Made by a program: the position numbers and the translations under genes. Positions 10,491 to 27,987 of a stretch of DNA of 36,467 nt are shown here, piece after piece. Under the pieces are notes generated by a model, which saw nothing but the letters and a program-made list of their open reading frames with translations, was not told the origin of the DNA and searched no databases. This DNA is from an uncultured Paracoccaceae bacterium (GTDB taxonomy: Bacteria; Pseudomonadota; Alphaproteobacteria; Rhodobacterales; Rhodobacteraceae), in assembly GCA_913061275.1 (NCBI GenBank), contig CAJXSR010000007.1:93410-129876 (forward strand), read 5' to 3'. Within the stretch, counting starts at the first letter, position 1. Each line of letters starts with the position of its first letter.

Positions 10491-10502
10491 TATAGTCTCC
10501 GA

Positions 10503-10883: not shown

Positions 10884-10893
10884 ATGCCCGCCC

Positions 10894-11417: not shown

Positions 11418-11448
11418 TGTGATCACATATTTTTACTTTGTGATCACA
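11418..11448. promoter_or_regulatory. Paired TGTGATCACA operators upstream of sdhC
   Basis: Perfect 10-bp palindromes lie at 11418-11427 and 11439-11448; the second extends to the 12-bp TTGTGATCACAA. Their centres are 21 bp apart, about two helical turns. The distal copy overlaps the stop codon of the upstream DUF1737 gene. An AT-rich stretch containing TATATA on the minus strand follows on the sdhC side. The same pair with the same spacing occurs before sucC, and a single copy lies at the GntR gene at 27978. Confidence 0.8.
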
Positions 11449-11647
11449 ACCTCCTCAGTTTCACATCCCGTGAATAATCGCCATCAGCATCTTTCACAAC
11501 CGCCTGCGCACAGCGCATAACACCATTTGCTGCATCAAATGCATAAGACGGGCTGCCGTGCAAACCCCAGCCGTTCGATAGGGCTTCGGTTACACGGTGG
11601 CAAAAATCGGATGTATCTTCATCAGTTATCAAACGATAGGCCTTCAT
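11444..11647 (-). CDS. DUF1737 family protein
   Basis: This 67-residue protein has the DUF1737 pattern: MKAYRLITDEDTSDFCHRVTEALSNGWGLHGSP, followed by a variable strand and CAQAVVKDADGDYSRDVKL. It is small and soluble, and its function is not known to me. Its ATG overlaps the nnrU stop codon (11644-11647, ATGA), so it is translationally coupled to nnrU. Its last codons overlap the distal sdh operator, so transcription of this operon would run across the sdh control region. That position may connect the two operons by read-through. Confidence 0.85.
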   Translation of the reverse strand: MKAYRLITDEDTSDFCHRVTEALSNGWGLHGSPSYAFDAANGVMRCAQAVVKDADGDYSRDVKLRRL

Positions 11648-12222
11648 GCGTAACCTGGGGAAAAAGGATTATATCCCAACAAAATGTGAATACTGGCAAT
11701 GACCGTAAACACAATTATCGTAATAACAACCAATCGAATATCCCCCGCAGGCGAGCCTGCTTCAGGGCGTACCCACGCCCCTTCGGCACGGTTAATCAAC
11801 ACCATTGTGGCAGCAGCCCAAAACCCTATTCCGCCAAATAAAATAAGAGAAGCAAGATCACCGTTCACCAGTAAATGCGCTACCATCCATATCACAACAC
11901 CTGTCAGCATCGGATGCCGCAACCATGTCCGCATCTTTCCTTTTGATGATCCCATCCCCATACACATGACAGCGACCACCATCAAAAAGTTATTAACGGG
12001 GCCCACGCCATCAAAAGGCGTATAAATCGGTATGAAATCGGCGCGTCTGAAACCAATAACCATCATGACAATAGCACCCAATAACAGAATTGTGATAAGC
12101 CCGCGCGCAGGGCCCGCACCAAATCGCGTGTCCATTTTTTTGCGCACATTCGGCATCAAACGCTTTATCCAATGCACATCAGCCCACAGGAAAACACCCA
12201 GTATCAATATCTCAAAATACAT
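11644..12222 (-). CDS. nnrU: NnrU family membrane protein
   Basis: A 192-residue inner-membrane protein with about six hydrophobic segments. Family marks are VHWIKRLMPNVRKKMDTRFG near the N-terminus and MRTWLRHPMLTGVVIWMVAHLLVNGD in the middle, as in NnrU/isoprenylcysteine-methyltransferase-like proteins. NnrU was named for genes linked to nitrite and nitric oxide reduction, but homologues are common outside denitrification loci, and no denitrification genes are present here. It starts one base after the stop of the malyl-CoA-lyase-like gene and overlaps DUF1737 by ATGA, giving a tight three-gene operon. Confidence 0.85.
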   Translation of the reverse strand: MYFEILILGVFLWADVHWIKRLMPNVRKKMDTRFGAGPARGLITILLLGAIVMMVIGFRRADFIPIYTPFDGVGPVNNFLMVVAVMCMGMGSSKGKMRTWLRHPMLTGVVIWMVAHLLVNGDLASLILFGGIGFWAAATMVLINRAEGAWVRPEAGSPAGDIRLVVITIIVFTVIASIHILLGYNPFSPGYA

Positions 12223-13098
12223 CTATGTACCTTCTCTTTTGGCCCGTTTGGCAATCATTTGTGCCATTTCAAGCAATTTACGCGCACTGTCGGCGTGTAA
12301 ACCTTCTACTAGTTCACCGTCCACAACGGCAACCCCCTTGCCTTGCGATTTGGCAAGATCATATGCCTGTACTTGGCGTTTTGCCAGATCAATCGCATCA
12401 ACACTGGGCGCGTATTGTGTATTTGCAGGGGCTATTTGGCTGGGATGGATAAGTGATTTTCCATCAAACCCAAGCACCTTGCCTTTTGCGCAGTTCTCGA
12501 CAAAACCCTGTGCGTCTGTGAACTGCTTATAAATGCCATCTATGCAAATCAACCCATAGGCACGCGCCGCAATAATACATAATCCATAGCTGGTAAGTAA
12601 CGCTTCCAAACCGGCAGTTTCTGTTGCACGCAGATCTTTCACCAAATCATTTGGCCCAACAACTATGCCTGAAAGACGTGATGAGGCTGCACAAATTTCA
12701 CGTAAATTCATAACCCCCATCGCAGTTTCAATCATAATCCATATTTTTGTATCTTTGGCTGCAGGTTCTGCATCCAATAGTTGTTCAACTGCCAAAACAT
12801 CTGACGCACAATTCACTTTCGGAACTAAGACAGCCTGCACACCCAGCGAAGACAAAGATGTAATATCTGCTTTAAAATATGGGCTTAGAACATCATTCAC
12901 GCGCACCATTGTTAAGGGTGCATCAAATCCACCTGCCTGCAAAATATCCACCACAACCTTGCGAGCTTGCTCTTTACGGTCAGGTGGTATTGAATCTTCT
13001 AAATCCAGAATTACAGCATCGCATTGCAGGTTTTTAGATTTTTCTACTGCCCGTTCATTTAACGCAGGTACAAACAGCAAAGAGCGCATGGGTGTCAT
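12223..13098 (-). CDS. mcl2: HpcH/HpaI aldolase family (CitE-like; probable (3S)-malyl-CoA thioesterase Mcl2)
   Basis: A 291-residue (beta/alpha)8 enzyme of the CitE/malyl-CoA lyase family. Typical blocks are MRSLLFVPALNERAVEKS, DAVILDLEDSIPPDRKEQAR (acidic metal-binding region), VRVNDVLSPYF, VLVPKVN, WIMIETAMGVMNL (catalytic/metal Glu) and GFDGKSLIHPSQI near the C-terminus. From memory, a paralogue called Mcl2 lies close to mdh and sdh in Rhodobacter and acts as a (3S)-malyl-CoA thioesterase that makes malate and CoA. The shared neighbourhood favours that identity, but citryl- or methylmalyl-CoA lyase activity cannot be excluded. AAGG precedes ATG 13098. It leads the operon with nnrU and DUF1737. 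Confidence 0.7.
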   Translation of the reverse strand: MTPMRSLLFVPALNERAVEKSKNLQCDAVILDLEDSIPPDRKEQARKVVVDILQAGGFDAPLTMVRVNDVLSPYFKADITSLSSLGVQAVLVPKVNCASDVLAVEQLLDAEPAAKDTKIWIMIETAMGVMNLREICAASSRLSGIVVGPNDLVKDLRATETAGLEALLTSYGLCIIAARAYGLICIDGIYKQFTDAQGFVENCAKGKVLGFDGKSLIHPSQIAPANTQYAPSVDAIDLAKRQVQAYDLAKSQGKGVAVVDGELVEGLHADSARKLLEMAQMIAKRAKREGT

Positions 13099-13185
13099 TT
13101 TAAAACCTTATCAATTTACCTATTTCTGCTAACTCATCAAATTTTCAGATTAATTGCAAATGCCAAATTCACCTTTGAACGCACG

Positions 13186-13199
13186 TTGAGTTAACTCAA
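13186..13199. promoter_or_regulatory. Perfect 14-bp palindrome in the mcl2 upstream region
   Basis: TTGAGTTAACTCAA is a perfect inverted repeat in the divergent gap between the mcl2 start (13098) and the small periplasmic gene (13268). Its position 88 bases from one start and 69 from the other fits an operator, but no regulator can be assigned. Confidence 0.4.
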
Positions 13200-13267
13200 T
13201 CTTACCATATCAGGACAACCCTTTAGCCATCAACAACGCATCAAACAAGGTGCTAGAAAGGTCTATA

Positions 13268-13585
13268 ATGCCTGTAAATACACAAAAAATAATGCTCGCT
13301 TTCACCATCGGATTTGTCGCAATAATGCTCACGCTAAAAACGGTACACGCTAACCCTGCAAACTGCGCAAAACGTGGCGAACTGTTAACTAAACTTAATG
13401 AACGTTTCGGCGAAAGCCGTCAAACCACGGGCTTAACCCCAAATGGGCAGGTGATTGAAACCTATGCACACCCTAGAACAGGAACGTGGACAATTATTCT
13501 TACTTTGCCAAATGGAATCAGTTGCATGCTCGCCTCTGGCAAAGCTTATGAACATATAAACGCCCCAGCTGGTCAGGGCGTTTAA
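13268..13585 (+). CDS. Small conserved periplasmic protein of unknown function
   Basis: ATG 13268 is preferred because AAAGG lies 8 bases before it; an in-frame GTG at 13250 has no ribosome site. The 105-residue product has a signal peptide (IMLAFTIGFVAIMLTLKTVHA) cleaved before NPANC. The mature domain of about 75 residues contains two Cys (NCAKRGELLTKLNERFGE and GISCMLASGKAYE), which could form a disulphide. The strand block VIETYAHPRTGTWTIILTLPNG suggests a small beta-sheet. I do not know its function. It lies before mdh in the same direction. A hairpin overlaps its stop codon, which may partly separate it from mdh. Confidence 0.7.
   Translation: MPVNTQKIMLAFTIGFVAIMLTLKTVHANPANCAKRGELLTKLNERFGESRQTTGLTPNGQVIETYAHPRTGTWTIILTLPNGISCMLASGKAYEHINAPAGQGV
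13558..13583 (+). terminator. Hairpin overlapping the end of the small periplasmic gene
   Basis: An 8-bp stem AAACGCCC/GGGCGTTT surrounds a ten-base loop and reaches into the TAA stop codon. No clear T-run follows, so it may be a weak terminator or an mRNA 3'-end stabiliser. Confidence 0.4.
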
Positions 13586-13646
13586 CCCGCAAAACGTCGC
13601 GCTTACAGCAAAATCACACAAAGTCGCTTGCTCTTCTTGTATATAA

Positions 13647-14651
<1,005 letters not shown>

Positions 14652-14667
14652 TCAATAACGACTCATG

Positions 14668-14703
14668 AAAAGGCTGCCTAAAAACTATAATGGGCAGCCT
14701 TTT
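14668..14703 (+). terminator. Strong intrinsic terminator of mdh
   Basis: A perfect 11-bp stem AAAAGGCTGCC/GGCAGCCTTTT with a 14-base loop runs into a T-rich tail 16 bases after the mdh stop. It separates mdh from the sucC control region. Confidence 0.88.
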
Positions 14704-14710
14704 CTATTTT

Positions 14711-14741
14711 AGTGATCACAAAATTTAATCGTGTGATCACA
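14711..14741. promoter_or_regulatory. Paired TGTGATCACA operators upstream of sucC
   Basis: AGTGATCACA (14711-14720, one mismatch from the palindrome) and TGTGATCACA (14732-14741) have centres 21 bp apart, the same spacing as the pair before sdhC. They lie between the mdh terminator and sucC. AT-rich sequence with TATATT (14751-14756) follows, so a promoter could start just downstream. This suggests joint control of the suc and sdh operons. Confidence 0.8.
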
Positions 14742-14847
14742 AAATCTCAATATATTCACATTATTACACTTTTTTCATTTTTTCCCTTCTTCCTTGCTAC
14801 GTCCTCTGTAATTATTGCGCGACGCATTCAACAAGAGGGACACACCC

Positions 14848-16041
14848 ATGAACATTCATGAATACCAAGCCAAAGGATTACTGCGCAAATACGGTGCAAA
14901 CGTATCTGAAGGCCGCATCGTAATGAACGCCGCTGAAGCCAAAGCTAAAGCCAGCGAAATGGGTGGCCCACTTTGGGTTGTAAAAGCACAAATTCATGCA
15001 GGTGGTCGCGGTAAAGGCCACTTTATGGAAGCCGAAGCAGGCGATGCGGGCGGTGTACGTTTGGCACATTCTGTCGAAGAAGCAGCTGAAGAAGCGCAAA
15101 AAATGCTAGGCCGCACGTTGGTCACACATCAAACTGGCCCCGCAGGCAAACAAGTGAATCGTGTCTATCTTGAAGATGGTGCTGACATTGAAAAAGAATT
15201 TTACCTAGCCGTACTGCTAGACCGCGAAAGTTCACGCGTTTCTTTCGTCGCCTCAACCGAGGGCGGCATGAACATCGAAGAAGTTGCCGCTGAAACCCCC
15301 GAAAAAATCGTAAGTTTCACTGTTGACCCTGCCGCAGGCCTATCAGGCTATCACGGCCGCCGCGTGGCCTTTGCCCTTGGTCTTGAAGGCAAGCAGATCA
15401 AACAATGCGTACAACTGATTACCCTTCTTTATAAAATGTTCATCGAAAAAGACATGGACATGCTGGAAATCAACCCGCTTATAATTACCAAAGATGGCGA
15501 CCTTAAGTGCCTTGATGCCAAAATGGGCTTTGACGGCAACGCTTTATACCGACAGCCCGACATCATGGAACTGCGCGATGAAACCGAAGAAGACGCCAAA
15601 GAACTGGAAGCCAGCAAATACGATCTGAACTACATCGCACTGGACGGTGAAATCGGCTGCATGGTGAATGGTGCGGGGCTAGCCATGGCAACAATGGATA
15701 TTATCAAACTATACGGCTCTGACCCTGCCAACTTCCTAGACGTAGGCGGCGGTGCTACTAAAGAGAAAGTTACCGAAGCTTTTAAAATCATCACCTCTGA
15801 CCCGAACGTCAAAGGCATCTTGGTCAACATCTTTGGCGGCATCATGCGCTGCGATGTGATCGCCGAAGGTGTTGTGGCCGCTGTCAAAGACGTAGGCCTG
15901 AAAGTGCCATTGGTAGTGCGTCTAGAGGGCACCAAAGTTGAAGAAGGTAAAAAGATCATCAATGAAAGTGGCCTGAACGTGATCGTCGGTGACGATCTAG
16001 GCGATGCTGCCAAGAAAATTGTAAAGGCAGTTCAAGGGTAA
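14848..16041 (+). CDS. sucC: Succinyl-CoA synthetase beta subunit (ADP-forming)
   Basis: The 397-residue ATP-grasp subunit makes ATP from succinyl-CoA together with SucD. ATG 14848 gives the canonical N-terminus [16 protein letters not shown] and follows AAGAGGGA; an upstream TTG frame extension is rejected. Visible blocks are [12 protein letters not shown] (nucleotide binding), [26 protein letters not shown] (metal-binding region), [15 protein letters not shown] and [11 protein letters not shown], with [17 protein letters not shown] in the C-terminal ligase domain. It is the first gene of the suc operon, directly below the paired operators. A methyltransferase gene starts 4 bases after its stop instead of sucD. 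Confidence 0.96.
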
Positions 16042-16045
16042 CTCC

Positions 16046-16852
16046 ATGACCCGCTCCACCCAATCCACAAGGGCCTGCCCCAACTGTGCTGCTGACAAAG
16101 CAGCACCTTTACCTGCATATTCGCAAGACGAATGGCAGGTTGTGGAATGTATGGGGTGTACAATGGTCTATCTTCAAAATCCGGCAGATTATGAAGCACT
16201 GGAAGAAGATTTTGCATGGGAAAAAACCTTTGCTGCAGAAGATGCCATGCGTCACCGTCGGAAATCATGGATCAAACGTGCAGCGCGGCAAGTACGCATC
16301 TTAAGTTACAAGCTAAGACGTGACCCCAACGATCATTATCTGTCGATATTAGGGGCTGGAAACATACTGGATGTAGGCTGCGGTGACGTTGTACGTTGGC
16401 GTGCGCCCTTTATTCCACATGGCATCGAAATATCAAAAGCATTACAAAAAACTGCACATGAAAAAATGCACGCTTTAGGCGGCGAATGCTTGCTTGGCGC
16501 GGGTGCAGAAGTGATTTGGCACTTTTCCGAAGATAAATTCGACAGCGTCATGATGCATTCCTATTTGGAACATGAAACGCAGGTCAGTAAAATCTTGAAT
16601 GGCGCCATACGTTGCCTGAAACCGGGCGGCAAAGCTTTTATCCGTGTGCCTAACTTCAACTCACTAAACCGCCGCATATCAGGCCCTAAATGGCCGGGTT
16701 TTCGTTACCCCGACCATGTCAACTATTTCACCGTGGAAACGTTAAAGGCGGTTGCCGCCAACGCTGGTTTCGACTTCAAACTCGTGAACCGTCACAAAAT
16801 CTGGCTGGATGACAATATCCAAGCCGTTCTCATAAAACCAATAATCGCGTAA
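16046..16852 (+). CDS. Class I SAM-dependent methyltransferase inserted between sucC and sucD
   Basis: A 268-residue protein. The N-terminus has a zinc-finger-like CPNC (C11, C14) and CMGC (C35, C38) pair, as seen in sugar C-methyltransferase-type proteins. The Rossmann core follows with the SAM motif ILDVGCGD at about residue 107. Motif-like blocks MMHSYLEHE, IRCLKPGGKAFIRVPNF and HVNYFTVETLKAVAANAGF complete the Methyltransf_11/23 pattern. The substrate is unknown; no polysaccharide genes are nearby. It lies 4 bases after sucC and 12 before sucD, with its ribosome site inside the sucC end, so it is co-translated with the succinyl-CoA synthetase subunits. Base composition looks like its neighbours, so recent insertion is not obvious. 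Confidence 0.88.
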   Translation: MTRSTQSTRACPNCAADKAAPLPAYSQDEWQVVECMGCTMVYLQNPADYEALEEDFAWEKTFAAEDAMRHRRKSWIKRAARQVRILSYKLRRDPNDHYLSILGAGNILDVGCGDVVRWRAPFIPHGIEISKALQKTAHEKMHALGGECLLGAGAEVIWHFSEDKFDSVMMHSYLEHETQVSKILNGAIRCLKPGGKAFIRVPNFNSLNRRISGPKWPGFRYPDHVNYFTVETLKAVAANAGFDFKLVNRHKIWLDDNIQAVLIKPIIA

Positions 16853-16864
16853 GGATCAAATTCA

Positions 16865-17746
16865 ATGTCTGTACTTATTAACAAGAACACCAAAGTTATT
16901 TGTCAGGGTCTAACAGGCTCGCAAGGCACATTTCACTCTGAACAAGCCATTGCTTACGGCACTAAAATGGTTGGCGGTGTAACACCCGGCAAAGGTGGCC
17001 AAACCCACCTTGATCTGCCGATTTTCAATTCCGTCCACGAAGCCCGCCATGTCACAGGCGCCAACGCAACAGTGATTTATGTACCACCGCCCTTCGCAGC
17101 AGACGGTATTTTAGAAGCTATTGATGCAGAAATTGAACTGATCGTTTGCATCACCGAAGGCATTCCTGTGCTGGATATGATGAAGGTTAAACGCGCATTG
17201 GATGGTTCCAAATCCCGCTTAATCGGCCCGAACTGCCCTGGTATCATCACGCCCGATGAATGCAAAATCGGCATTATGCCAGGCCACATCCACATGGCAG
17301 GCACCTGTGGTGTTGTATCCCGTTCAGGCACGCTAACCTATGAAGCCGTTAAACAAACTACCGATCTGGGCCTAGGCCAATCAACTGCCATCGGCATCGG
17401 CGGCGACCCGATTAAAGGTACAGAACATATTGATTGTCTGGAAATGTTCATGGCCGACCCTGACACCCATTCCATCATCATGCTGGGCGAAATCGGCGGT
17501 TCTGCCGAAGAAGATGCCGCACAATTCATCATTGATGAAGCCAAAGCAGGCCGCAAAAAACCCATCGCAGGCTTCATCGCAGGCATAACAGCCCCTCCGG
17601 GTCGTCGCATGGGCCACGCGGGCGCGATTGTTGCAGGCGGCAAAGGTGACGCTGCCAGCAAGATCGAAGCAATGAAAGCCGCAGGCATCGTGGTGGCAGA
17701 CAGCCCAGCGACACTTGGTGAAGCCGTGATGAAAGCTATCGGGTAA
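16865..17746 (+). CDS. sucD: Succinyl-CoA synthetase alpha subunit
   Basis: The 293-residue alpha subunit carries the phosphohistidine intermediate and binds CoA. The N-terminus [29 protein letters not shown] matches the CoA-binding Rossmann domain. [14 protein letters not shown] and [14 protein letters not shown] are family blocks. [18 protein letters not shown] supplies the active-site H251. The length is normal. It forms the heterotetramer with SucC although a methyltransferase gene separates the two. The 86-base gap to sucA contains a GC-rich hairpin that may tune downstream expression. Confidence 0.97.
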
Positions 17747-17758
17747 CCACAAAAATTG

Positions 17759-17781
17759 CCTCGCGCAACACACGCGCGGGG
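17759..17781 (+). terminator. GC-rich hairpin between sucD and sucA
   Basis: CCTCGCG and CGCGGGG can pair over 7 bp (one G-T) around a nine-base loop. No T-run follows, so it is more likely an attenuator or processing/stability element than a full terminator. Confidence 0.35.
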
Positions 17782-17832
17782 CCTCCACGTAATACCTTCG
17801 TACAATCGACGGGGAAATTTGGGACCAAAAAC

Positions 17833-20775
17833 ATGACAGATCAATTATCAAATGACCAGCTTCACGCATCATCCTTCCTACAAGGGCATAATGCGGAATA
17901 TATTGAACAGCTTCACGCCAATTACGTGAAAGACCCTGCCTCGGTGGATGCAAGTTGGGTCGCGTTTTTCAATGATCTGGGCGACGATGATACGACGATC
18001 ACCAAAGAGGCCGAAGGCGCTTCTTGGTCGCGTTCTGACTGGCCACCTACCCCCAACGATGACCTGACCGCCGCCCTTGACGGGCAATGGGCCGCTGACC
18101 CTGAAAAAGCCATCAAAACTAAAGCTGCAACAGCAGGTGTTGAACTAAGTGACAACCAAATTCAACGCGCAGTGCTGGACAGTATACGCGCACTGATGAT
18201 TATTCGCGCCCACCGTATTCGCGGCCATCTGGCAGCTGACCTTGACCCGTTGAAGCTGAAAAAGTCAGGGCCACATCCCGAGCTTGACCCAACATTCTAT
18301 GGCTTCAATGAAATCGATATGGATCGTCCGATATTTTTGGACAATGTGCTAGGGATGCAAACAGCCACCATGCGCACCATCATTGCCAAGCTGCGCAAAA
18401 CCTATTGCGGCACGTTCGCACTGCAATACATGCACATATCCGATCCTGTGCAAGCTGCATGGCTGAAAGAACGCATCGAGGATTACGACAAAGAGAGTTT
18501 CTTCACCAAAATGGGCCGCAAAGCCATATTGGGCAAAATGGTCGAGGCCGAAGGGTTTGAAAATTTTTGCCACGTCAAATATTCTGGCACCAAACGCTTT
18601 GGCCTGGACGGTGGCGAGGCGCTAATACCCGCGATGGAACAAATCATCAAACGCGGCGGTGCATTAGGTGTCAAAGACATTATCATCGGCATGCCGCATA
18701 GGGGCCGCTTAAATGTACTTTCTAACGTGATGGGCAAACCGTATCGCGCAATCTTCAACGAATTTTTCGGAGGCAGCTACAAACCTGACGATGTCGAAGG
18801 TTCAGGTGACGTGAAATACCACTTAGGCGCATCCTCTGATCGCGTATTTGACGGCAATAGCGTGCATCTGTCACTTACCGCCAATCCATCACACCTAGAA
18901 GCGGTAAACCCTGTTGTTTTAGGCAAAGCGCGGGCCAAGGGTGACCAAATGGGACGCAATCGCGGTGCCGTGATGCCTGTACTGTTGCACGGCGATGCAG
19001 CCTTTGCTGGCCAAGGCGTGATTTCCGAATGTTTCGGCCTGTCAGGCCTTAAGGGCCATATTACAGGCGGCACAATACATATCGTTGTGAACAATCAAAT
19101 CGGCTTCACCACCGCCCCGCATGACAGCCGCTCATCGCCATATCCAACTGATATAGCCATGATGGTAGAAGCCCCGATCTTTCATGTGAACGGGGACGAC
19201 CCCGAAGCGGTCGTTCATGCCGCCAAAATTGCTACAGAATACCGCCAGAAGTTCCAAAAAGATGTGGTTCTGGACATTTTCTGTTACCGTCGTTTTGGTC
19301 ATAACGAGGGTGATGAACCGATGTTCACACAGCCCGAAATGTACACAAAGATTAAAACCCACAAAACTTCATTAGCTTTGTATACCGAACGTCTGATTAA
19401 AGACGGTTTAATCCCTGAAGGTGAAATAGAAGACATAAAAGTCGCGTTTCAGGCCAAATTGAATGAAGAATTTGAAGCGGGTAAAAACTACAAACCCAAC
19501 AAAGCCGATTGGCTGGACGGCAAGTGGAAACATCTGGAAAGTAAAGACCCAGAATACCAACGTGGAAAAACTCATATCACCGAAGGACGCTTCAAAGAGG
19601 TCGGCGCGGCATTGACCAAACTACCAAGCGATTGGGCACCACATAGAACCATCTCACGCATCTTGAAGGTCAAGTCTGAAATGATCAATTCGGGAAAAGG
19701 TATTGATTGGGCCACAGCCGAGGCCCTTGCCTTTGGCTCATTGCAGGTCGAAGGCTTTCCCGTGCGTCTGTCAGGTCAAGATTGCGAACGCGGCACATTC
19801 AGCCACCGCCATTCCGCCATTCTGGATCAGAAAACATCCGAAAAATACTACCCACTGAACAATATCCGCTCTGAACAAGCATCCTATGAAGTAATAAACA
19901 GTATGCTGTCCGAATACGCCGTCCTAGGCTACGAATATGGCTACACATTGGCCGAACCCAATGCGCTAACGTTATGGGAAGCCCAGTTTGGTGACTTCGC
20001 TAATGGTGCCCAAATCATGATAGACCAATTCATAAGCTCTGGTGAAAGCAAATGGTTGCGCATGTCAGGGCTAGTGATGTTGTTGCCTCACGGCATGGAA
20101 GGCCAAGGGCCAGAACACTCTTCAGCACGACCTGAGCGTTTCTTGCAAATGTGTGCCGAAGATAACTGGGTCATCGCCAACGTGACCACCCCAGCCAATT
20201 ACTTCCACATTTTGCGCCGCCAATTGCACCGCACTTATCGCAAGCCGTTGGTTATCATGTCACCAAAATCCTTACTCCGCCACAAAATGGCAATCAGCAC
20301 GATGCAAGAATTCACTGGCAAATCCAGTTTTCACAGGGTTCTGTGGGATGATGCTGAAATGGGCAATTCAGATACAAAACTATTGCCAGATATCAAAATC
20401 AAACGTGTGGTTCTGTGTTCAGGTAAGGTTTACTTTGATCTGTTGGCTGAACGCGATGCTCGTGGCATTGACGATATCCACCTACTGCGTGTCGAACAGC
20501 TTTACCCAATCCCTGAAAAAGCCCTCACAGACGAATTAGGCCGCTTTGAAAAGGCAGATTTTGTCTGGTGTCAGGAAGAGCCTAAAAACCAAGGCTACTG
20601 GACACATATCTACCCACCGATTGAGGAAGTTTTGGACCGCGTAGACGCCAAACACCCACGCCTAAAATACGTAGGCCGCCCGCCCGCCGCAGCCCCCGCA
20701 ACGGGCTTGGCCAGTAACCACAAATTACAACAAGACGCGCTGGTAAATGATGCGCTTACCCTTGGAGGAAAATAA
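17833..20775 (+). CDS. sucA: 2-oxoglutarate dehydrogenase E1 component
   Basis: This 980-residue thiamine-diphosphate enzyme decarboxylates 2-oxoglutarate and passes the succinyl group to the E2 lipoyl domain. The N-terminal E2-binding arm reads [22 protein letters not shown]. Core blocks are [41 protein letters not shown] (TPP/metal site), [24 protein letters not shown], and in the transketolase-like domain [13 protein letters not shown] and [20 protein letters not shown]. The C-terminal part ends with [12 protein letters not shown] and the [10 protein letters not shown] tail. The length is normal for alphaproteobacterial SucA. It is followed one base later by sucB. Confidence 0.97.
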
Positions 20776-20776
20776 G

Positions 20777-22282
20777 ATGACCGAAGTACGTGTACCAACC
20801 CTGGGCGAAAGCGTCTCTGAAGCAACCATCGCTACATGGTTTAAGAAAGTAGGTGACAGCGTTGCCGTAGATGAAATGATCTGCGAGCTGGAAACCGACA
20901 AAGTAACCGTCGAAGTGCCCTCACCCATCGCAGGTACTTTAACCGAAATCATTGCCAATGAAGGCGATACAGTTGGCGTTGATGCGTTACTGGCAAATAT
21001 TTCCCAAGGCGATGCAGCAGCCCCTGCACCTAAAGCCGAAACAACTCCAAAAGCTGCCCCAAAAGCTGCCAAGGCATCTAGCGATGAACTTGTTTCCATC
21101 ATGGTGCCTACTTTGGGCGAAAGCGTTACTGAGGCCACCGTAGGCACTTGGTTCAAAGCTGTTGGCGATACCGTTGCCGCTGACGAAATGCTGTGCGAGT
21201 TGGAAACCGATAAAGTTTCCGTTGAAGTGCCTTCACCTGCATCAGGTGTTATCACAGAAATTCTGGCCGCTGACGGCGTGACCGTTGGCGCAGGTGCCCA
21301 ACTTGGCACCATTTCCGGCTCTGCATCATCTGCGGCAATGACCCCGCAACCCTCTGCCGCCCCAGCTGACGCACCTGCTGATGCCGTTAAAAACGCACCC
21401 GCCGCAGAAAAACTAATGGCTGAAAGTAACCTGAACGCCGATCAGGTAACGGGTACTGGCAAAGACGGGCGGGTTATGAAATCAGATGTGCAGGCAGCTC
21501 TTGCCACACCTGCCGCAGCACCTGTAGTTGCCCCAGCGCCAGCCGCCGTCGCACCACGTGCGCCTGTGGCCGCAGATCAGGCATCCCGCGAAGAGCGTGT
21601 AAAAATGACACGTTTGCGCCAAACCATTGCGCGGCGTTTGAAAGAAAGCCAAAACACAGCCGCGATGCTGACCACATATAATGAGGTCGACATGTCCGCC
21701 GTTATGGCTTTGCGTAACCAATACAAAGATATCTTCCTTAAAAAACACGGCGTCAAACTGGGGTTTATGTCTTTCTTTACAAAGGCATGCTGTCACGCAC
21801 TAAATGAGGTACCCGAAGTGAACGCCGAAATCGACGGCACAGATGTTGTTTATAAAAACTACGTCAACATGGGTATTGCCGCAGGCACACCTACAGGCCT
21901 AGTAGTACCAGTGATCCGCGACGCCGATCAAATGTCTTTTGCCACTATTGAGAAATCCATTGCCGAAAAAGGTGCGCGTGCGCGTGACGGCAAGCTTAGC
22001 ATGGCCGAAATGCAAGGTGGTACCTTCACCATCTCAAACGGCGGCGTCTACGGCAGCCTGATGTCATCGCCCATCCTGAACCCGCCACAGTCGGGCATCC
22101 TTGGCATGCACACCATCCAAAAACGCGCCGTGGTAGTGAATGATGAGATCGTCATCCGCCCGATGATGTATCTGGCATTATCTTACGACCACCGCATCGT
22201 CGACGGTAAAGGTGCTGTGACCTTCCTTGTAAGGGTGAAGGATGCACTGGAAGATCCGCGTCGGTTGTTGATGGATTTGTAA
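20777..22282 (+). CDS. sucB: 2-oxoglutarate dehydrogenase E2 (dihydrolipoyl succinyltransferase) with two lipoyl domains
   Basis: ATG 20777 is preferred because GGAGG lies 8 bases before it and gives the standard N-terminus [13 protein letters not shown]; an upstream start would run into sucA. The 501-residue core protein contains two lipoyl domains, with lipoyl lysines K42 ([12 protein letters not shown]) and K146 ([12 protein letters not shown]). Ala/Pro linkers follow, then an E3/E1-binding domain ([25 protein letters not shown]) and the catalytic domain with [13 protein letters not shown] (active-site His/Asp). Many SucB proteins have only one lipoyl domain; the two here are similar to each other and probably arose by internal duplication. 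It acts with SucA and Lpd. Confidence 0.96.
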
Positions 22283-22288
22283 ATAAGT

Positions 22289-22308
22289 TACCCTGCTATA
22301 GCAGGGTA
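22289..22308. promoter_or_regulatory. Perfect 20-bp palindrome just after sucB
   Basis: TACCCTGC-TATA-GCAGGGTA is self-complementary over all 20 bases and begins 7 bases after the sucB stop. As RNA it makes an 8-bp hairpin with a TATA loop. No T-run follows, so it may be a weak terminator, a processing site or an operator for the small genes downstream. Confidence 0.45.
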
Positions 22309-22328
22309 TCACCTACTTGGAGTATCTA

Positions 22329-22757
22329 TTGAAACGTCCAACTGGCATTCTAGTAATTGCATTCGCAGCTGCTGCGCTATCATTATGGAGTGCTATTCAA
22401 TTGTACTATACTATGTCTTTTGAAATTTTGTTAATCAAAGAAGAGGGTGGAAATTTAACAGATCTATTAGCAAACTTTGCATCCTCTTCACTACTAGTTT
22501 TCACAATAATATCAATTACATTCACTATACTTGTATATGGAATGAAAAAGCTATCGATTGCTGCAAACATCTTATTGGTAACAGCAATCCTATCGCCAAT
22601 ATTCCTTTATCAAAACATCGGGACAACATTCTTTGATCCTGCTTATACAGATACATATTATGTTATACTTAGCCCAAGTGCATGGGTTATGATTATTGCC
22701 CTATCTTTTTCTATTTTCTATTTAATTTGGTGTAATTCTAGGAATTTACTGAAATGA
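22329..22757 (+). CDS. Small four-helix membrane protein, unknown
   Basis: TTG 22329 (MKRPTGILVIAF) is preferred because GGAG lies 6 bases before it; an in-frame TTG at 22317 would overlap that site. The 142-residue product has four predicted membrane helices (about residues 5-25, 44-68, 76-92 and 112-136). The coding DNA is visibly more AT-rich than sucB or lpd, with many ATA, TTA and AAT codons, which suggests foreign origin. I do not recognise the family. Its stop TGA overlaps an ATG (ATGA, 22754-22757) that begins a sequence copying the start of the VOC gene at 23421. Confidence 0.6.
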   Translation: MKRPTGILVIAFAAAALSLWSAIQLYYTMSFEILLIKEEGGNLTDLLANFASSSLLVFTIISITFTILVYGMKKLSIAANILLVTAILSPIFLYQNIGTTFFDPAYTDTYYVILSPSAWVMIIALSFSIFYLIWCNSRNLLK

Positions 22758-22894
22758 TCACTTTCGACCATACCTCCCTCGCTCAGCCTAAAAGCCTGAA
22801 CAGCAAAACTGCAGCGATCTTCCTAAGCTACGAAAGAAGCCCTAAAATACCCGCCTCAGCTATTAATAGAATTGTGAACCAAAAATGGACCTAA
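22754..22894 (+). pseudogene. VOC-gene start remnant 1 (small ORF in the coupled chain)
   Basis: The first 19 bases (ATGATCACTTTCGACCATA) are identical to the start of the VOC gene at 23421 and encode MITFDH. The similarity then fades. The open frame is 46 codons and ends INRIVNQKWT, overlapping the start of the next membrane ORF. It shares both its start and its ending with the remnant at 23103. It is best read as a leftover from duplication of the VOC gene start. It may be translated, but a function is not implied. Confidence 0.5.
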
Positions 22895-23106
22895 AAAAAA
22901 CGCGTACAGGACACCCAAAACGGAAGTTTTACTCTGTATTGATACTGTGGTTAATTATGGTGGCTGTCCTGATGTACGACTTAAACAGCGTTTCTTCAGG
23001 CGGTGAGCCCCGAAATATTTTGTTGCTGCTCTTTGCCGCTTTTGGATGGTTGTTTCCAGCATTCCATCTGTGGCAATGGTGGAAGTATCATAAGGGTACG
23101 ACATGA
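22885..23106 (+). CDS. Small membrane protein, first copy of a tandem pair
   Basis: The 73-residue protein has a basic N-terminus (MDLKKTRTGHPKRKFYS) and two predicted membrane helices (about residues 18-34 and 45-63), ending in an aromatic/basic tail WQWWKYHKGTT. It is clearly homologous to the ORF at 23156 (shared HPKRKFYS, LWLIMVAVL/MWLIVVAVL, GWLFPAF/GWLLPAY and W-W/C-KY tail). No ribosome site is evident; translation may depend on coupling, because the start overlaps remnant 1 and the stop overlaps the ATG of remnant 2 (ATGA). The function is unknown. Confidence 0.6.
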   Translation: MDLKKTRTGHPKRKFYSVLILWLIMVAVLMYDLNSVSSGGEPRNILLLLFAAFGWLFPAFHLWQWWKYHKGTT

Positions 23107-23165
23107 CAATCCTCGACCATATAGTACCCGTTACAAACAGAATTGCGAACCTAAAATGGACATGA
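23103..23165 (+). pseudogene. VOC-gene start remnant 2 (20-codon ORF)
   Basis: It encodes MTILDHIVPV, resembling the VOC start MITFDHIAIA, and then runs at once into NRIANLKWT, which matches the NRIVNQKWT ending of remnant 1. It is coupled by ATGA to the upstream membrane ORF and overlaps the downstream one (ATGGACATGA). It looks like a shortened duplicate of remnant 1 and helps define the duplicated unit. Confidence 0.45.
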
Positions 23166-23374
23166 AAGAATGGCGGGCAGTACACCCGAAACGAAAATTT
23201 TATTCAGAGTTAGTTATGTGGCTTATCGTTGTCGCGGTTCTAATCTATGATTTCTATATAAATCCACTTGTCGGACGGCAACGCTTTGGGTTGATGCTGA
23301 TTGCCGGCCTTGGCTGGCTACTTCCAGCCTATCGTTACTGGAAATGGTGCAAATATGACGAAGAGCAGAAATGA
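23156..23374 (+). CDS. Small membrane protein, second copy of the tandem pair
   Basis: A 72-residue paralogue of the ORF at 22885, with N-terminus MDMKEWRAVHPKRKFYSELVMWLIVVAVLIYD, a second hydrophobic segment GLMLIAGLGWLLPAYRYW, and tail KWCKYDEEQK. ATG 23156 aligns with the first copy, and upstream bases also match (GAATTG-GAACC before both starts), so the duplicated unit includes the 5' region. A longer in-frame extension to 23003 reads through the first copy in another frame and is rejected. Its stop overlaps the next ATG (ATGA at 23371-23374). The function is unknown. Confidence 0.6.
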   Translation: MDMKEWRAVHPKRKFYSELVMWLIVVAVLIYDFYINPLVGRQRFGLMLIAGLGWLLPAYRYWKWCKYDEEQK

Positions 23375-23424
23375 TACAAGATCAGGCCCAAATAGATAAG
23401 TACGCACTGGCCATAGTCCCATGA
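23371..23424 (+). other. 17-codon coupling ORF between membrane copy 2 and the VOC gene
   Basis: ATG 23371 overlaps the preceding stop as ATGA. The frame (MIQDQAQIDKYALAIVP) ends with a TGA that itself overlaps the VOC start codon as ATGA at 23421. No function is proposed for the peptide. It would let ribosomes pass from one gene to the next by re-initiation. Confidence 0.35.
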
Positions 23425-24059
23425 TCACTTTCGACCATATCGCCATTGCAGCACCTTCCCTCAAAGAAGGCGCAAAATATGTGCATGCGCAAACGGGCCT
23501 GACAGTCGCCAAAGGTGGTGAGCATCCCGATATGGGCACTCATAATCTGCTGACGGCCCTTGGCCCTAATACTTTTGCCGAAGTAATCGCCATCAACCCA
23601 GATGCCCCTGCCCCCAACCGCCCGCGTTGGTTCGGGCTTGATGACCCATCCGAACAGGCCAGGTTTCCCCGCTTGCAAGCATGGTTACTGCGTACCGATG
23701 ATATAGAAGGATGCATCAAAAAAGCCGCCGAAATCGGCATTGATCTAGGCCATGCAATCCCTTTCAGGCGTGACGCATTGCGGTGGCGTTTCACCGTCAC
23801 AGATAGTGGTGCTATCCCCTTAGACGGTGCCGCCCCTTTAATATTACAATGGGATACAAAAGGCCCGCATCCCGCAAGTAATATGACCGATCTTGGCTTG
23901 CGCATGGATGCGCTCACTATAAAAACTCCGCACATGGCAAAACTCACCGAATTATTAACCGTCTTAGGTTTAAAAAACCAACCCAATATCAAACTTGCAA
24001 ACACCACAAAAATTACTGTAAGTTGTTCAACACCAAACGGAAAGGTTACCCTACAATGA
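23421..24059 (+). CDS. VOC family protein (glyoxalase-like domain)
   Basis: A 212-residue protein of the Glyoxalase_3-like group in the vicinal oxygen chelate superfamily. The N-terminal DHIAIAAPSLKEGAKYVHAQTG, then GGEHPDMGTHNLLTALGPNTFAEVIAINP, carries His and Glu residues where VOC enzymes place metal ligands. The middle has RTDDIEGCIKKAAEIG, and a second repeat-like half ends with LTVLGLKNQPNI. The substrate is unknown. The start at 23421 overlaps a 17-codon ORF by ATGA, and the stop overlaps the MAPEG gene start by ATGA (24056-24059). Its first bases are repeated twice upstream. Confidence 0.8.
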   Translation: MITFDHIAIAAPSLKEGAKYVHAQTGLTVAKGGEHPDMGTHNLLTALGPNTFAEVIAINPDAPAPNRPRWFGLDDPSEQARFPRLQAWLLRTDDIEGCIKKAAEIGIDLGHAIPFRRDALRWRFTVTDSGAIPLDGAAPLILQWDTKGPHPASNMTDLGLRMDALTIKTPHMAKLTELLTVLGLKNQPNIKLANTTKITVSCSTPNGKVTLQ

Positions 24060-24445
24060 CCCCCGAACTCACCGCACTTGCCCTTGCAGGCATCTTGCAA
24101 CTGTTGCAACTGATGATCTATGTCATTGCGGGCGACCGCCAGATCGGTTTGAAAACTGCCATGGGAAACCGTGACGACAAACCAGAACTCACCGGCATTC
24201 CCGCCCGCTTGCAACGCGCCTATAACAACCACTTTGAAAGCCTAGCCCTGTTCACCATAGCCGTGATCGTGATTACACTTTCAAACCAATCAAGTCCTCT
24301 GACCCAATGTTGCGCATGGATCTATCTAGCCGCACGTATCCTTTACATCCCCGCCTACATATTCGGCCTGTCCCCTTGGCGTTCGGTTATCTGGACGGTT
24401 GGCATCGGGGCGGCTGCTCTCATGTTATTGGCGACCCTATTTTGA
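24056..24445 (+). CDS. MAPEG family membrane protein
   Basis: ATG 24056 (MTPELTALALAGILQLLQLM) overlaps the VOC stop as ATGA and is preferred to an in-frame ATG 33 bases upstream inside the VOC gene. The 129-residue product has four predicted membrane helices. The MAPEG signature RLQRAYNNHFESLALFTIAVIVI sits between helices 1 and 2, and YLAARILYIPAYIFG in helix 3. MAPEG proteins include glutathione-dependent membrane enzymes, and bacterial members are mostly uncharacterised. It is the last member of the coupled chain; 142 bases separate it from lpd. Confidence 0.88.
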   Translation: MTPELTALALAGILQLLQLMIYVIAGDRQIGLKTAMGNRDDKPELTGIPARLQRAYNNHFESLALFTIAVIVITLSNQSSPLTQCCAWIYLAARILYIPAYIFGLSPWRSVIWTVGIGAAALMLLATLF

Positions 24446-24517
24446 CGCTTCCAAATGGTCAAAATATCCTCGCCGAAGGCAACAAAGTTAACAAACAGCA
24501 ACCCTTGCGGTTGCCAT

Positions 24518-24550
24518 ACACTTTCCATACACTTTCCATACGCATTCCAT
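24518..24550. repeat. Three tandem 11-bp repeats upstream of lpd
   Basis: Two perfect copies of ACACTTTCCAT (24518-24528, 24529-24539) are followed by a third with two changes, ACGCATTCCAT (24540-24550). The array lies 37 bases before the lpd start codon. The period is close to one helical turn, so a protein could bind the copies on one face of the DNA; slippage-generated repeats are the plain alternative. Confidence 0.8.
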
Positions 24551-24587
24551 ACCGCCAAATCGGCGCAATCACGAAAGGTTAACACCC

Positions 24588-25976
24588 ATGTCTGACTATG
24601 ATGTAATCGTAATTGGCGGTGGCCCTGGCGGCTACGTCTGCGCCATACGCTGCGCCCAGCTAGGCCTAAAAACCGCCTGCGTTGAGGGCCGAGATGCCCT
24701 TGGTGGCACTTGCCTGAATGTGGGTTGCATCCCGTCCAAAGCTCTACTGCACGCCAGCCATATGTACCATGAGGCCACACATAATTTTACCAAAATGGGC
24801 CTAATGGGAAAATCCCCCTCGGTCGATTTTGGAAAGATGATAGAATACAAAGACAGCGTGATTGCACAAAACACCAAAGGCGTCGAATTTTTGTTTAAGA
24901 AGAACAAGATAGATTGGCTGAAAGGCTGGGGAAGTATTGCAGGTGCTGGCCAAGTAAAAGTTGGCGATGAACTGCATAATGCCAAAAGTATTGTCATTGC
25001 ATCAGGCTCTGAACCTTCATCCTTACCAGGCGTCGAAGTTGATGAAAAAGTGGTGGTTTCCTCTACAGGCGCGCTGGCTTTACCCAAAGTTCCTAAAAGC
25101 CTAGTAGTCATCGGTGCAGGCGTTATCGGTTTAGAAATGGGCAGCGTTTACGCCCGCCTTGGTGCAGAAGTCACAGTTGTAGAATTCTTGGATCACATCA
25201 CCCCTGGCATGGACAAAGAGCTTGGCAAAACACTGCAAAGATCACTGAAAAAACAAGGACTTAAGTTTGTGATGGGTGCTGCCGTTCAGTCAGTGGACAT
25301 ATCCAAAGGCAAGGCAAAAGTAAATTATAAGTTACGCAAAAACGATAAAGAAGACACGCTAGATGCCGATGTGGTCTTATTGGCCACAGGTCGCAAACCG
25401 TTTACGGACGGTTTGGGTTTTGAGGCCTTGGGTGGTAAAATTTCACCACGCGGCCAAATCGAAACTGATGACCATTGGCGCACCAATATTAGTGGTGTTT
25501 TCGCCATTGGCGATGTCATTGATGGCCCAATGCTGGCCCATAAAGCCGAAGATGAAGGTATGGCTGTTGCCGACGTAATTGCTGGCAAACATGGTCATGT
25601 GAATTACGGCGTAATTCCGGGCGTAATCTACACCTCACCAGAGGTTGCCAATGTAGGCCAAACTGAAGAGCAGTTAAAAGAAGCGGGCATTGATTACAAA
25701 GTCGGCAAGTTCAGCTTTATGGGCAATGGTCGTGCTAAAGCAGTGTTTCAAGGCGAAGGTTTCGTGAAGCTTTTAGCCGATGCAAAAACCGATAAGATCT
25801 TAGGTTGTCATTTGATTGGCCCCGCCGCAGGTGAATTAATTCATGAAATTTGTGTCGCAATGGAATTTGGTGCATCGGCAGAAGACATCGCGTTGACTTG
25901 CCACGCACACCCCACACTTTCAGAGGCCGTCCGCGAAGCTGCATTGGCATGTGGAGATGGCGCAATTCACGCTTAA
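24588..25976 (+). CDS. lpd: Dihydrolipoyl dehydrogenase (E3)
   Basis: This 462-residue flavoenzyme reoxidises dihydrolipoyl groups of SucB with NAD+. The FAD motif [18 protein letters not shown] opens the protein. The redox-active disulphide is C42/C47 in [13 protein letters not shown]. The NAD-binding motif is [25 protein letters not shown], the second FAD block is [22 protein letters not shown], and the C-terminal [15 protein letters not shown] supplies the active-site His and Glu. GAAAGG precedes ATG 24588 at normal spacing. It completes the 2-oxoglutarate dehydrogenase complex genes, is set apart from sucB by the small-gene chain, and is followed by a strong terminator. Confidence 0.97.
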
Positions 25977-25982
25977 GGGCGC

Positions 25983-26038
25983 GTTACAAACTATAATTCC
26001 TGATAGGGCGCGTACATCCTATCAGGAATATTTGTAAC
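25983..26038 (+). terminator. Large two-part hairpin terminator after lpd
   Basis: An inner perfect 12-bp stem ATTCCTGATAGG/CCTATCAGGAAT with a ten-base loop is enclosed by an outer 8-bp stem GTTACAAA/TTTGTAAC. It starts 7 bases after the lpd stop and is followed by ATTTTGC. It probably ends the suc-lpd transcript. Confidence 0.82.
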
Positions 26039-26157
26039 ATTTTGCTAAACAGTTTAATGCTGCAAGTTACCTGCCTTGCCAGCAATTCCTAATACTCACA
26101 TCATTGTCATCCGAATTCATTTGTGGCATCCAATGTGCCTATGCAAATACCCGTTCT

Positions 26158-27144
26158 ATGAACGATACAACCAATATGCCCCATTCCCTTTACCGCTATA
26201 TTTTCCAAAACTCATATGGAAAACAAGTTTTGGTAGTTATTCTAACCTTGGTGCTTTTGCCCCTAGCCCCAATCCCTTTGGAATTACAAAGGCGTATGTT
26301 GGATGATGCTGTTGCCAATGGGGATGTTGATTTATTATTTAAACTCAGCGGCTTATATTTATTGGCAATGCTTGTATCAGCGTGTTTTAAATTTGCCATG
26401 CGTACACAACGTGAGCTTATTTCGGCACATATTGTCCGCTCGCTTCATACATCGGTATTTTATTGCATGTATACCTATGTGCCAAAACTGCGTCCTATCC
26501 AAACACCACAAGACTTAGATAAGGTTGATGAAGGTGCTGTGGTATCAATGTTATCATCCGAAGTTGAAAAACTTGGCGGTTTTGCAGGTTCTGCCATTTC
26601 TGGCCCTTTGTTTGAAACAGGCACTTTGTTTTTCGTTTTGGGTTATATGTTTTGGATAGAACCTTTTGTTGCATCAATCGCTTTAGCTTTTTACATGCCA
26701 CAGTTTATTATTGTTCCGTTCTTTCAGGCCCGAATGAACCGACTTGCCCAACAAAAAGCCCTTAAAATGCGGACATTGGGTTCATTCATCGTTGACCACC
26801 CAGAGGATGATTTAGTCCATGCCGATCCCCCAAAGATCTTTGTTAGCCTTATCGAAGATATTTTGGCTATACGCACACGTTTCATATTAAATAAAAATGT
26901 AATGAAAACCCTTAATAATCTGCTGATCGCACTTGGGCCGTTTGGTGTTATTTCATATGGCGGGTATTTAGCGACGCAAGGGGAAATAGAGGTTGGTGTT
27001 ATATTGGCCTTTGTATCCGGGTTGGAACGGCTTAGTGGGCCAATTCGTGATTTGGTAAGCTCGTACAGCCAGATTACAGATGCCCATATGCGTTATTCCA
27101 CTCTGCTGGATGCGTTCCCTAAACCCCATATAAAAACCAGTTAA
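26158..27144 (+). CDS. Stand-alone ABC exporter transmembrane domain (no ATPase domain)
   Basis: From ATG 26158 the product has 328 residues and about six membrane helices. It matches the type 1 exporter membrane domain: FKFAMRTQRELISAHIVRSLHTSVF, a long coupling-helix region, GYMFWIEPFVASIALAFYMPQF, and near the end GEIEVGVILAFVSGLERLSGPIRDL, which is the usual end of this domain. The ATPase domain that normally follows (Walker A, signature, Walker B) is absent, and a terminator lies 28 bases after the stop. It may pair with an ATPase encoded elsewhere or have lost transport function. The start is uncertain, since no candidate start has a good ribosome site; TTG 26104 and ATG 26176 are alternatives. 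Confidence 0.75.
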   Translation: MNDTTNMPHSLYRYIFQNSYGKQVLVVILTLVLLPLAPIPLELQRRMLDDAVANGDVDLLFKLSGLYLLAMLVSACFKFAMRTQRELISAHIVRSLHTSVFYCMYTYVPKLRPIQTPQDLDKVDEGAVVSMLSSEVEKLGGFAGSAISGPLFETGTLFFVLGYMFWIEPFVASIALAFYMPQFIIVPFFQARMNRLAQQKALKMRTLGSFIVDHPEDDLVHADPPKIFVSLIEDILAIRTRFILNKNVMKTLNNLLIALGPFGVISYGGYLATQGEIEVGVILAFVSGLERLSGPIRDLVSSYSQITDAHMRYSTLLDAFPKPHIKTS

Positions 27145-27172
27145 ATCACAAAAAACATATCTAAAATAATGG

Positions 27173-27214
27173 AACTCCCTGACAGACTGCTCATGCGCTG
27201 TCAGGGAGTTTTCT
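27173..27214 (+). terminator. Intrinsic terminator after the ABC membrane-domain gene
   Basis: A perfect 13-bp stem AACTCCCTGACAG/CTGTCAGGGAGTT with a twelve-base loop is followed by TTCTC, with TTTT at the stem end. A second hairpin (GGCCTCT/AGAGGCC, 27218-27243) follows; it lacks a T-run. Confidence 0.85.
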
Positions 27215-27316
27215 CGTGGCCTCTAAAGAGGGGGGAAGAGGCCAAGCTGACAGGGGAAGCCAGCCGTTCGATGTATGATATACGTAGGGCGAACCGCTTT
27301 CCGTCGCAAGTATATG

Positions 27317-27970
27317 TCACTCATTTGTGAGCATTCGTAAGCTCTGCGTTACATCTGTTCGAATAGCCAATTTCAGCCCAGGTTCATCACCTGCTTTTAA
27401 AGCTGAAATAACCATTCGATGATTGTCAGATGCATCACGACGTTGCAGTTTTTCATACAAAACAGTCATCGTTGGGCTTAGCTGCAACCACACGGTTTCA
27501 ACCATTGCCAGCATTGCAGGTGCTTGCGCACGTAAATAAAGTGTTCGGTGGAATTCCAGATTTGCCCGGATATATGCGACAGGTTTATTTTTGACGATTG
27601 CCTGCGATATGGTGCTGTTAATTGTATAGAGCCGTTCAATAAGCGCCATGTGCGCCCGTGGTAATGCACGGCTTGCCAGTTCTGGTTCCAACAGTGCGCG
27701 GATAGAAGCCAGTTCTTCAATCCGTTCCGTCGATAATACAGGTGCAGTCACACGCCCTGTTGACGAAACAGAGACCGCCCCTTCTGCAGATAAGCGGCGT
27801 ACAGCTTCGCGTGCAGGTGTCATACTGGCCCCATATTTTTGCGCAATTCCGCGAATGGTCAATGCCATACCTGCCTCTATTTCGCCGTGCATAAGTTCAC
27901 CGCGCAAAGACCGGTAAACCCGTTCATGATGCGGGATAGTTTTTTCTGTATGGCCATCTTTTTTAAGCAT
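27317..27970 (-). CDS. GntR-family regulator, FadR/FCD subfamily
   Basis: From ATG 27970 the protein has 217 residues; a GTG two codons upstream is an alternative. The N-terminal winged helix reads ERVYRSLRGELMHGEIEAGMALTIRGIAQKYGASMTPAREAVRRLSAEGAV, a textbook GntR DNA-binding domain. The C-terminal FCD helical domain (about residues 80-210) normally binds a small acid, often through a metal held by Asp/Asn and three His. Here EFHRTLY and DNHRMV supply two His, but the third expected His position reads RTDVTQ, with Asp. A single TGTGATCACA palindrome lies 8 bases before the ATG, probably for autoregulation. The same sequence is paired before sdhC and sucC, so this protein is the best local candidate to control them. 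Confidence 0.9.
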   Translation of the reverse strand: MLKKDGHTEKTIPHHERVYRSLRGELMHGEIEAGMALTIRGIAQKYGASMTPAREAVRRLSAEGAVSVSSTGRVTAPVLSTERIEELASIRALLEPELASRALPRAHMALIERLYTINSTISQAIVKNKPVAYIRANLEFHRTLYLRAQAPAMLAMVETVWLQLSPTMTVLYEKLQRRDASDNHRMVISALKAGDEPGLKLAIRTDVTQSLRMLTNE

Positions 27971-27977
27971 ACCCACA

Positions 27978-27987
27978 TGTGATCACA
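27978..27987. promoter_or_regulatory. Single TGTGATCACA operator at the GntR gene start
   Basis: The perfect palindrome lies 7 bases upstream of the GntR ATG codon (minus strand). A possible -35 box TTGACT lies at 27999-28004 on the minus strand, so the palindrome would overlap the -10/start region, a usual place for a repressor site. A 7-bp inverted repeat CAAGATG/CATCTTG (28002-28025) also overlaps the -35 box. Confidence 0.75.

Follow-up and report, generated by a model that had tools for sequence, protein, structure and literature searches.

Tandem palindromes ahead of the sdh and suc operons as predicted operators of an AkgR-type GntR/FCD regulator in Rhodobacteraceae

The window analysed here is a stretch of 36,467 nt (contig CAJXSR010000007.1) from an uncultured Paracoccaceae bacterium, in which the sdh and suc operons and the gene of a GntR/FCD regulator, most likely an orthologue of AkgR, share a short palindrome. 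The sdhCDAB operon (7566-11286) lies on the minus strand and is composed of sdhC, its first gene (10894..11286), sdhD (10503-10883), sdhA (8670-10490) and sdhB (7566-8345). On the plus strand, sucC, starting with ATG (14848..16041), is followed by sucD (16865-17746), sucA (17833-20775), sucB (about 20777-22282) and lpd (24588-25976), and the regulator gene, akgR, occupies 27317..27970 on the minus strand. Gene names are readings of the translations, to which Pfam added support for nine proteins, including those of sdhC (Sdh_cyt), sdhA, sucC, sucA and lpd; sdhD, sdhB, sucD and sucB were named from the translation.

Exact copies of the palindrome, TGTGATCACA, are found at 11418-11427, 11439-11448, 14732-14741 and 27978-27987, and a copy with one mismatch, AGTGATCACA, lies ahead of sucC at 14711-14720. 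At the sdh operon, the predicted site at 11418..11427 is promoter-proximal and that at 11439..11448 promoter-distal, because sdh is read from the minus strand; at the suc operon, the mismatched copy is the promoter-distal site and 14732..14741 the promoter-proximal one, 106 nt ahead of the sucC ATG. The centres are 21 bp apart in both pairs. The single predicted operator at akgR (27978..27987) stands 7 nt ahead of the ATG, at the expected -10 position. A first-pass annotation had described the two pairs, their 21-bp spacing and the single copy at the start of the GntR/FCD gene, all of which were confirmed, while its statement that the window holds no other copy is true of exact copies but overlooks a one-mismatch copy, TGTTATCACA, within sucB (21247-21256). 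Its view of the regulator's start codon also needs adjustment, in that the site does adjoin the gene but the GTG at 27976, the choice of the open reading frame (ORF) caller, is probably not the start; the ATG at 27970 is preferred because relatives share that ATG position.

All five sites form a contiguous 10-bp palindrome and not two half sites split by six bases. The window holds six matches with at most one mismatch, whereas 100 shuffled versions averaged 1.27 and never exceeded 4, and 300 simulated first-order windows contained one pair at 12-60 bp in total. The 3.39-Mb assembly was searched with two patterns, exact TGTGATCACA and WGTGATCACW. The former occurs eight times, four of them in the window (reversed control pattern, 0), and the latter 11 times, five of them in the window (reversed control, 1). 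With these patterns, the only copies outside the window are six of WGTGATCACW, every one inside an ORF; from their translations, these were read as folA, a fadB-like gene, an FAD-dependent oxidoreductase, a TRAP-type solute-binding protein, methylmalonate-semialdehyde dehydrogenase and a glutamine-synthetase-like gene. Intergenic exact or A/T-ended copies are found solely before sdh, suc and akgR, which is the feature of an AkgR regulon, namely the suc/odh and sdh operons, together with the regulator gene itself.

In Rhodobacter and related bacteria, AkgR is known to regulate the TCA (tricarboxylic acid) cycle; in Rhodobacter sphaeroides, we take it to be RSP_0981. It reportedly goes back to work by Imam, Noguera and Donohue in mBio in 2015. 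RSP_0981, a GntR protein, is a predicted regulator of sucCD, sdh and alpha-ketoglutarate dehydrogenase (PMC4344238), and AkgR is described as a transcriptional activator, with GTGATCAC among its sites (PMC6365646). The window and R. sphaeroides agree in the GntR family, the predicted sdh/suc targets and the palindrome core GTGATCAC. By locus-tag order (RSP_0962-0981), regulator and targets also share one neighbourhood in R. sphaeroides, although the gene there would lie on the sdh side, whereas the window akgR lies behind lpd. A second R. sphaeroides regulator, RSP_1663, is presumably CceR. It is called GapR in PMC4052901 and is predicted for overlapping TCA-cycle genes including mdh and sdh (PMC4344238), but it belongs to the LacI family and has the motif GTT-N6-8-AAC. 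Another likeness is offered by PS417_07240 of Pseudomonas simiae, which is 32% identical to AkgR and has GTGATCAC upstream of its cluster; unlike AkgR, it is the proposed regulator of a deoxyribonate oxidation cluster and not of the TCA cycle (PMC6365646).

The repeated palindrome is thus most likely the binding site of AkgR, as predicted from sequence, and very probably serves as the operator through which the protein encoded at 27317-27970 coordinates sdhCDAB, sucCDAB-lpd and its own gene. The system as such is already known; the window adds a new AkgR member, and the proposal in the first-pass annotation of a local TCA-cycle controller is a rediscovery, which the site positions, the co-distribution of sites and regulator in relatives and the published AkgR targets and palindrome core support. 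The strict 20/21-bp spacing, the operator over the akgR -10 region and the phased A/T tracts described below are possibly unreported; the literature searched on tandem FCD operators, on this regulon and on phased A-tracts yielded nothing further on AkgR.

Both the GntR DNA-binding domain (Pfam E 1.1e-12) and the FCD sensor domain (E 1.7e-17) of the window protein exceed the gathering score. Matches to it at 60-85% identity were found in 33 of 36 genus and family relatives, one partial, and a 64% match in a Rhodobacter ruber genome (L082) supports a putative family-wide orthologous group. Orthologue copies, defined by at least 55% identity and including that of the window, number 62, and at 33 of 61 orthologue loci akgR has lpd no more than 1.5 kb away. 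His 143 and His 186, typical of FCD metal sites, are invariant in the 62 copies, as is Asp208, which presumably takes the place of the third histidine of the FCD metal site.

The palindrome is present at the orthologue's own start in 49 of the 62 copies (44 exact, five with one mismatch), in agreement with the single autoregulatory site proposed earlier. In a subset of 48 orthologues, the site is present with no more than one mismatch in 38, and in 35 of these the start codon follows it by 6-8 nt. At least five of the six bases of TTGACA lie upstream in 31 of the 38, exactly 17 nt before the site in 28 of the 31. The window conforms, with a predicted -35 box, TTGACT, at 27999..28004 on the minus strand and the operator 17 nt after the start of TTGAC, and the operator therefore occupies the place of the -10 element. 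We infer from this layout an arrangement of autorepression, and the akgR mRNA may be leaderless, as the ATG falls where transcription should begin.

Across the order, represented by an even draw of 390 genomes, a pair of 8-bp cores at 21 bp was found in 380 genomes, and the reversed control pattern in none of the 390. By hand count, 280 genomes have two such pairs, 90 have one, 10 have three and 10 have none, although five of the last group have a 20-bp pair instead. A search with free spacing (13-43 bp) covered 48 genomes, namely all 10 that have no 21-bp pair, 35 of the 90 single-pair genomes, and G011, G014 and G036; it returned 71 pairs by hand count, not all located at operons, with 37 at 21 bp, 31 at 20 bp and one each at 15, 36 and 42 bp. 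A spacing of 32 bp at sdhC in two genomes hints at a three-turn variant, but none of the 71 pairs has it, so that phase is supported for two turns only.

When genes were picked by protein and not by motif, a pair with at most two mismatches in all was present at 28 of 30 sucC promoters and 15 of 30 sdhC promoters of close relatives. The two sucC promoters without a pair belong to G036 and G011; in G036, no AkgR orthologue was found and sites are also absent at both sucC and sdhC. A scan of named genomes gave exact 21-bp pairs in at least 119 contig stretches, and among the matches listed (122 pairs), 96 lie before sucC, 23 before sdhC and one before sucA, the remaining two being beside mdh and severed by the locus end. 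Nearly all of 80 listed titles are Rhodobacteraceae or Rhodobacterales; the exceptions listed are Maritalea, Robiginitomaculum and one unplaced alphaproteobacterial metagenome-assembled genome (MAG). The Robiginitomaculum MAG (L066) has its pair before a sucC fragment and no orthologue in the genome at E<=1e-20, and may possibly be mis-binned. Paired sites and an akgR site are the arrangement common to most related genomes examined.

Beyond the order, 318 genomes of the class were sampled, with at most nine candidates scored per genome for the orthologue. Matches at E<=1e-40 occur in four, all in the family of the window, and were not found in the 314 genomes outside it. Pairs occur in five, three of them in the family. 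Sites of the GTGATCAC type and the AkgR orthologue are co-distributed across genomes.

The sites could instead belong to another regulator, either a 36% identical GntR/FCD paralogue or a CRP/FNR-type protein with TGTGA/TCACA half sites, AkgR being merely one of its targets. The paralogue is akin to AkgR, and palindromes resembling the motif, TTTGATCAAA for example, occur in some of its upstream regions; in addition, G014 retains its sucC and sdhC pairs although no AkgR orthologue was found in it. However, the palindrome (up to one mismatch) is present at only three of 25 paralogue starts (one exact, two with one mismatch; copies at 27-40% identity), compared with the 49 of 62 orthologue starts. 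Among the 314 genomes outside the family, in which the orthologue was not found, pairs turned up in only two, once ahead of a 27%-identical GntR/FCD gene and once inside an ORF, and the motif is itself reported for AkgR (PMC6365646). A CRP/FNR protein was rejected on the shape of the sites, which are contiguous and not TGTGA-N6-TCACA. Overall, ownership by another regulator appears very improbable.

Among 34-38% identical paralogues, a palindrome of the type TTTGATCA is the best upstream match in eight of 12 loci within L269-L280 (L269, L272-L274 and L277-L280) and is possibly a related but distinct operator. The outside-family pair before a GntR/FCD gene (L328 991-1021, in G564 of another family of the class) has 21-bp spacing, lies about 140-190 bp ahead of that gene and is flanked on the opposite side by an ORF for a probable TonB-dependent receptor; the paired arrangement may predate AkgR.

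Several observations weigh against assigning the palindrome to AkgR. The putative orthology of the window protein to RSP_0981 rests on family, location, targets and motif. Thirteen of the 62 akgR copies have no operator at up to one mismatch, and 15 of the 30 sdhC promoters of close relatives have no good pair, six of them having one exact copy. G011 has a 66% AkgR match and keeps just the akgR site, without pairs, and G014, as noted above, has pairs where no orthologue was found; its locus L337 is the first 20 kb of a 42-kb contig, and this contig has the position behind lpd but no akgR there. Five order genomes have no pair at all. G199 has a best AkgR match of just 33%, G287 has no match at E<=1e-20, and G168 and G282 have matches at 45-47% and retain their own operator. 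G286 is the real exception: although its AkgR match reaches 65%, no site was found within the 19 kb that surround akgR, nor any pair spaced 13-43 bp.

L283, L285, L287, L294 and L296 (G105, G231, G227, G308 and G211) each have three operators in series, at 0/21/42 bp, ahead of sucC. These account for five of the ten three-pair genomes, and all are at sucC, so that the third pairs were rejected as new regulon members; those of G091, G307 and G144 lie inside long ORFs and were likewise rejected as new targets (G155 and G239 were left out). Among the ten, the five genomes with triple sucC operators are the five with an operator-less akgR, a coincidence that may be a single event because their two genera have 86% identical AkgR. 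Other operator-less orthologues are in L262, L264, L265 and L325, and the site in L031 has two mismatches.

The sucC gene probably has its own promoter, since a strong hairpin lies behind mdh and before the pair (14667..14704, plus strand; fold -22.9 kcal/mol, z -6.55). This probable terminator has no entry in a consensus terminator scan, its loop being longer than the scan allows; sucC would thus be a separately started unit. The promoter profiles of the family draw on 224 distinct fragments, each with two exact cores spaced 20 or 21 bp and lying clear of a locus end; they were aligned at the promoter-proximal site, and the set was thinned to sequences less than 70% identical. A conserved TT near 55 bp from the proximal site marks the probable -35 region of sucC, and the best -35 match of sdhC lies near 66-68 bp in 23 of 56 promoters, so that the two differ by about one turn.

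In the mechanism that we favour, two AkgR dimers would bind next to each other, on the same side of the DNA and separated by two helical turns, at about 50-65 bp ahead of the -35 region, in a manner resembling class-I activation. The intervening phased A/T tracts would bend the DNA or offer minor-groove contacts to the alpha subunits of RNA polymerase, and the bound array would recruit polymerase and switch on sdhCDAB and sucCDAB-lpd together. At akgR, one dimer over the -10 region would limit AkgR's own synthesis. As its signal, the FCD domain would probably bind a small carboxylate.

Many FCD proteins are repressors, and AkgR might likewise repress sdh and suc until released by a carboxylate. 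NanR of E. coli, a GntR-type repressor, is also cooperative on a tandem operator, where three of its dimers bind, although its repeats are (GGTATA)3 and it represses sialic acid genes (PMC8012715). However, 95-169 nt separate the end of the pair from sucC, and 107-191 nt from sdhC; the pairs thus lie upstream of the predicted -35 and, unlike the akgR site, are poorly placed to block polymerase. The sucC -35 is degenerate, with TT in 60% and TTG in just 8% of 137 promoters. AkgR is moreover called an activator (PMC6365646), and therefore probably represses only its own gene. Repression at the enzyme operons is hardly likely, and their direction of control is probably activation.

Among promoters with 21-bp spacing (131 sucC, 49 sdhC), the stretch from the operators to the promoter alternates strongly between A/T and G/C. 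At sucC, the A/T fraction ranges from 0.20 to 0.98, with maxima near 9, 18-19, 29, 39 and 48-49 bp. Periods of 9.5 bp for sucC and 10.25 for sdhC fit best, and the observed power at 9.5-11.5 bp was reached by none of 1000 rolled controls in either set; inclusion of 20-bp pairs (137 sucC, 56 sdhC) gives powers of 1.15 and 0.81. The maxima hold A and T in nearly equal numbers, with 92-93% of their A/T steps being AA, TT or AT, and C and G are both used at the minima. Counts of A/T runs of at least four, uncorrected for A/T content, are about double those upstream, at 2.71 per 46 nt in the segment vs 1.26, and 2.48 vs 1.07. The depletion of TpA over the whole segment is modest (0.10-0.11 vs 0.12-0.18 elsewhere).

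A/T tracts are common upstream of promoters, and the phasing may be an ordinary feature of this kind, or a result of common descent, unrelated to AkgR. The promoters are orthologous within each operon, and the controls are small or imperfect: a first filter for generic promoters left one candidate and three relaxed patterns 1, 6 and 22 non-redundant ones, and the stretch upstream of akgR is often the end of another gene. Some power near 10 bp is also present outside the segment, both ahead of the pair (0.11 and 0.10) and in the leader (0.24 and 0.37), in each case higher than in the respective rolled controls. Against this, the sequences are less than 70% identical, and the class persists although A and T replace one another freely at maxima, as do C and G at minima. 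Both operons are in the same phase, as the sucC and sdhC profiles correlate with r 0.73 at lag 0 and -0.66 to -0.68 at a 5-bp shift, and a positive correlation with the sucC profile was obtained for 55 of 56 individual sdhC promoters (median 0.29). No phasing was seen in 43 akgR promoters (power 0.04) or in 22 non-redundant other predicted promoters (0.016), compared with 1.15 and 0.81. An origin unrelated to AkgR is nevertheless a possibility to be taken seriously.

It is tentatively proposed, as an idea that falls somewhat short of an even prospect, that AkgR promoters carry a conserved physical code: four to five A/T tracts, present at two unrelated promoters, kept as A/T or G/C class but free in base, in phase with both operators and strongest on the promoter side, would curve or wrap the DNA and so bring the bound activators round to RNA polymerase, and phase rather than sequence would be decisive for activation. 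Besides the power outside the segment, other points count against a role of the phased tracts. The best sucC period is at the lower edge of the band, and neither period is exactly the 10.5 of B-DNA. The window, being rich in A/T, fits the family profiles only weakly, with r 0.32 to the sdhC profile and 0.16 to the sucC profile for the sdh segment (11365..11417, minus strand) and 0.42 to the sucC profile for the sucC segment (14742..14794, plus strand). The -10 boxes and start sites are predictions.

Other genes surround these elements. A 67-codon ORF upstream of sdhC (11450-11647, minus strand) has its stop codon (11444-11446) within the promoter-distal sdh site. Between sdh and mdh, an NnrU gene (11644-12222) and an HpcH_HpaI (citrate/malyl-CoA lyase-like) gene (12223-13098), both on the minus strand, recur near these operons in many relatives. 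A methyltransferase-domain gene (16046-16852) separates sucC from sucD, an interval that differs widely among relatives.

With these observations, a regulator described in one species becomes that of a minimal regulon, two enzyme operons and the regulator itself, in almost every genome sampled from a large family, and the operator geometry is so strict that the sequence by itself suffices to recognize it. Should the phased A/T segment prove functional, these promoters, about 190 in number, would be a natural set that conserves the shape of DNA, and not the identity of its bases, between activator and promoter.

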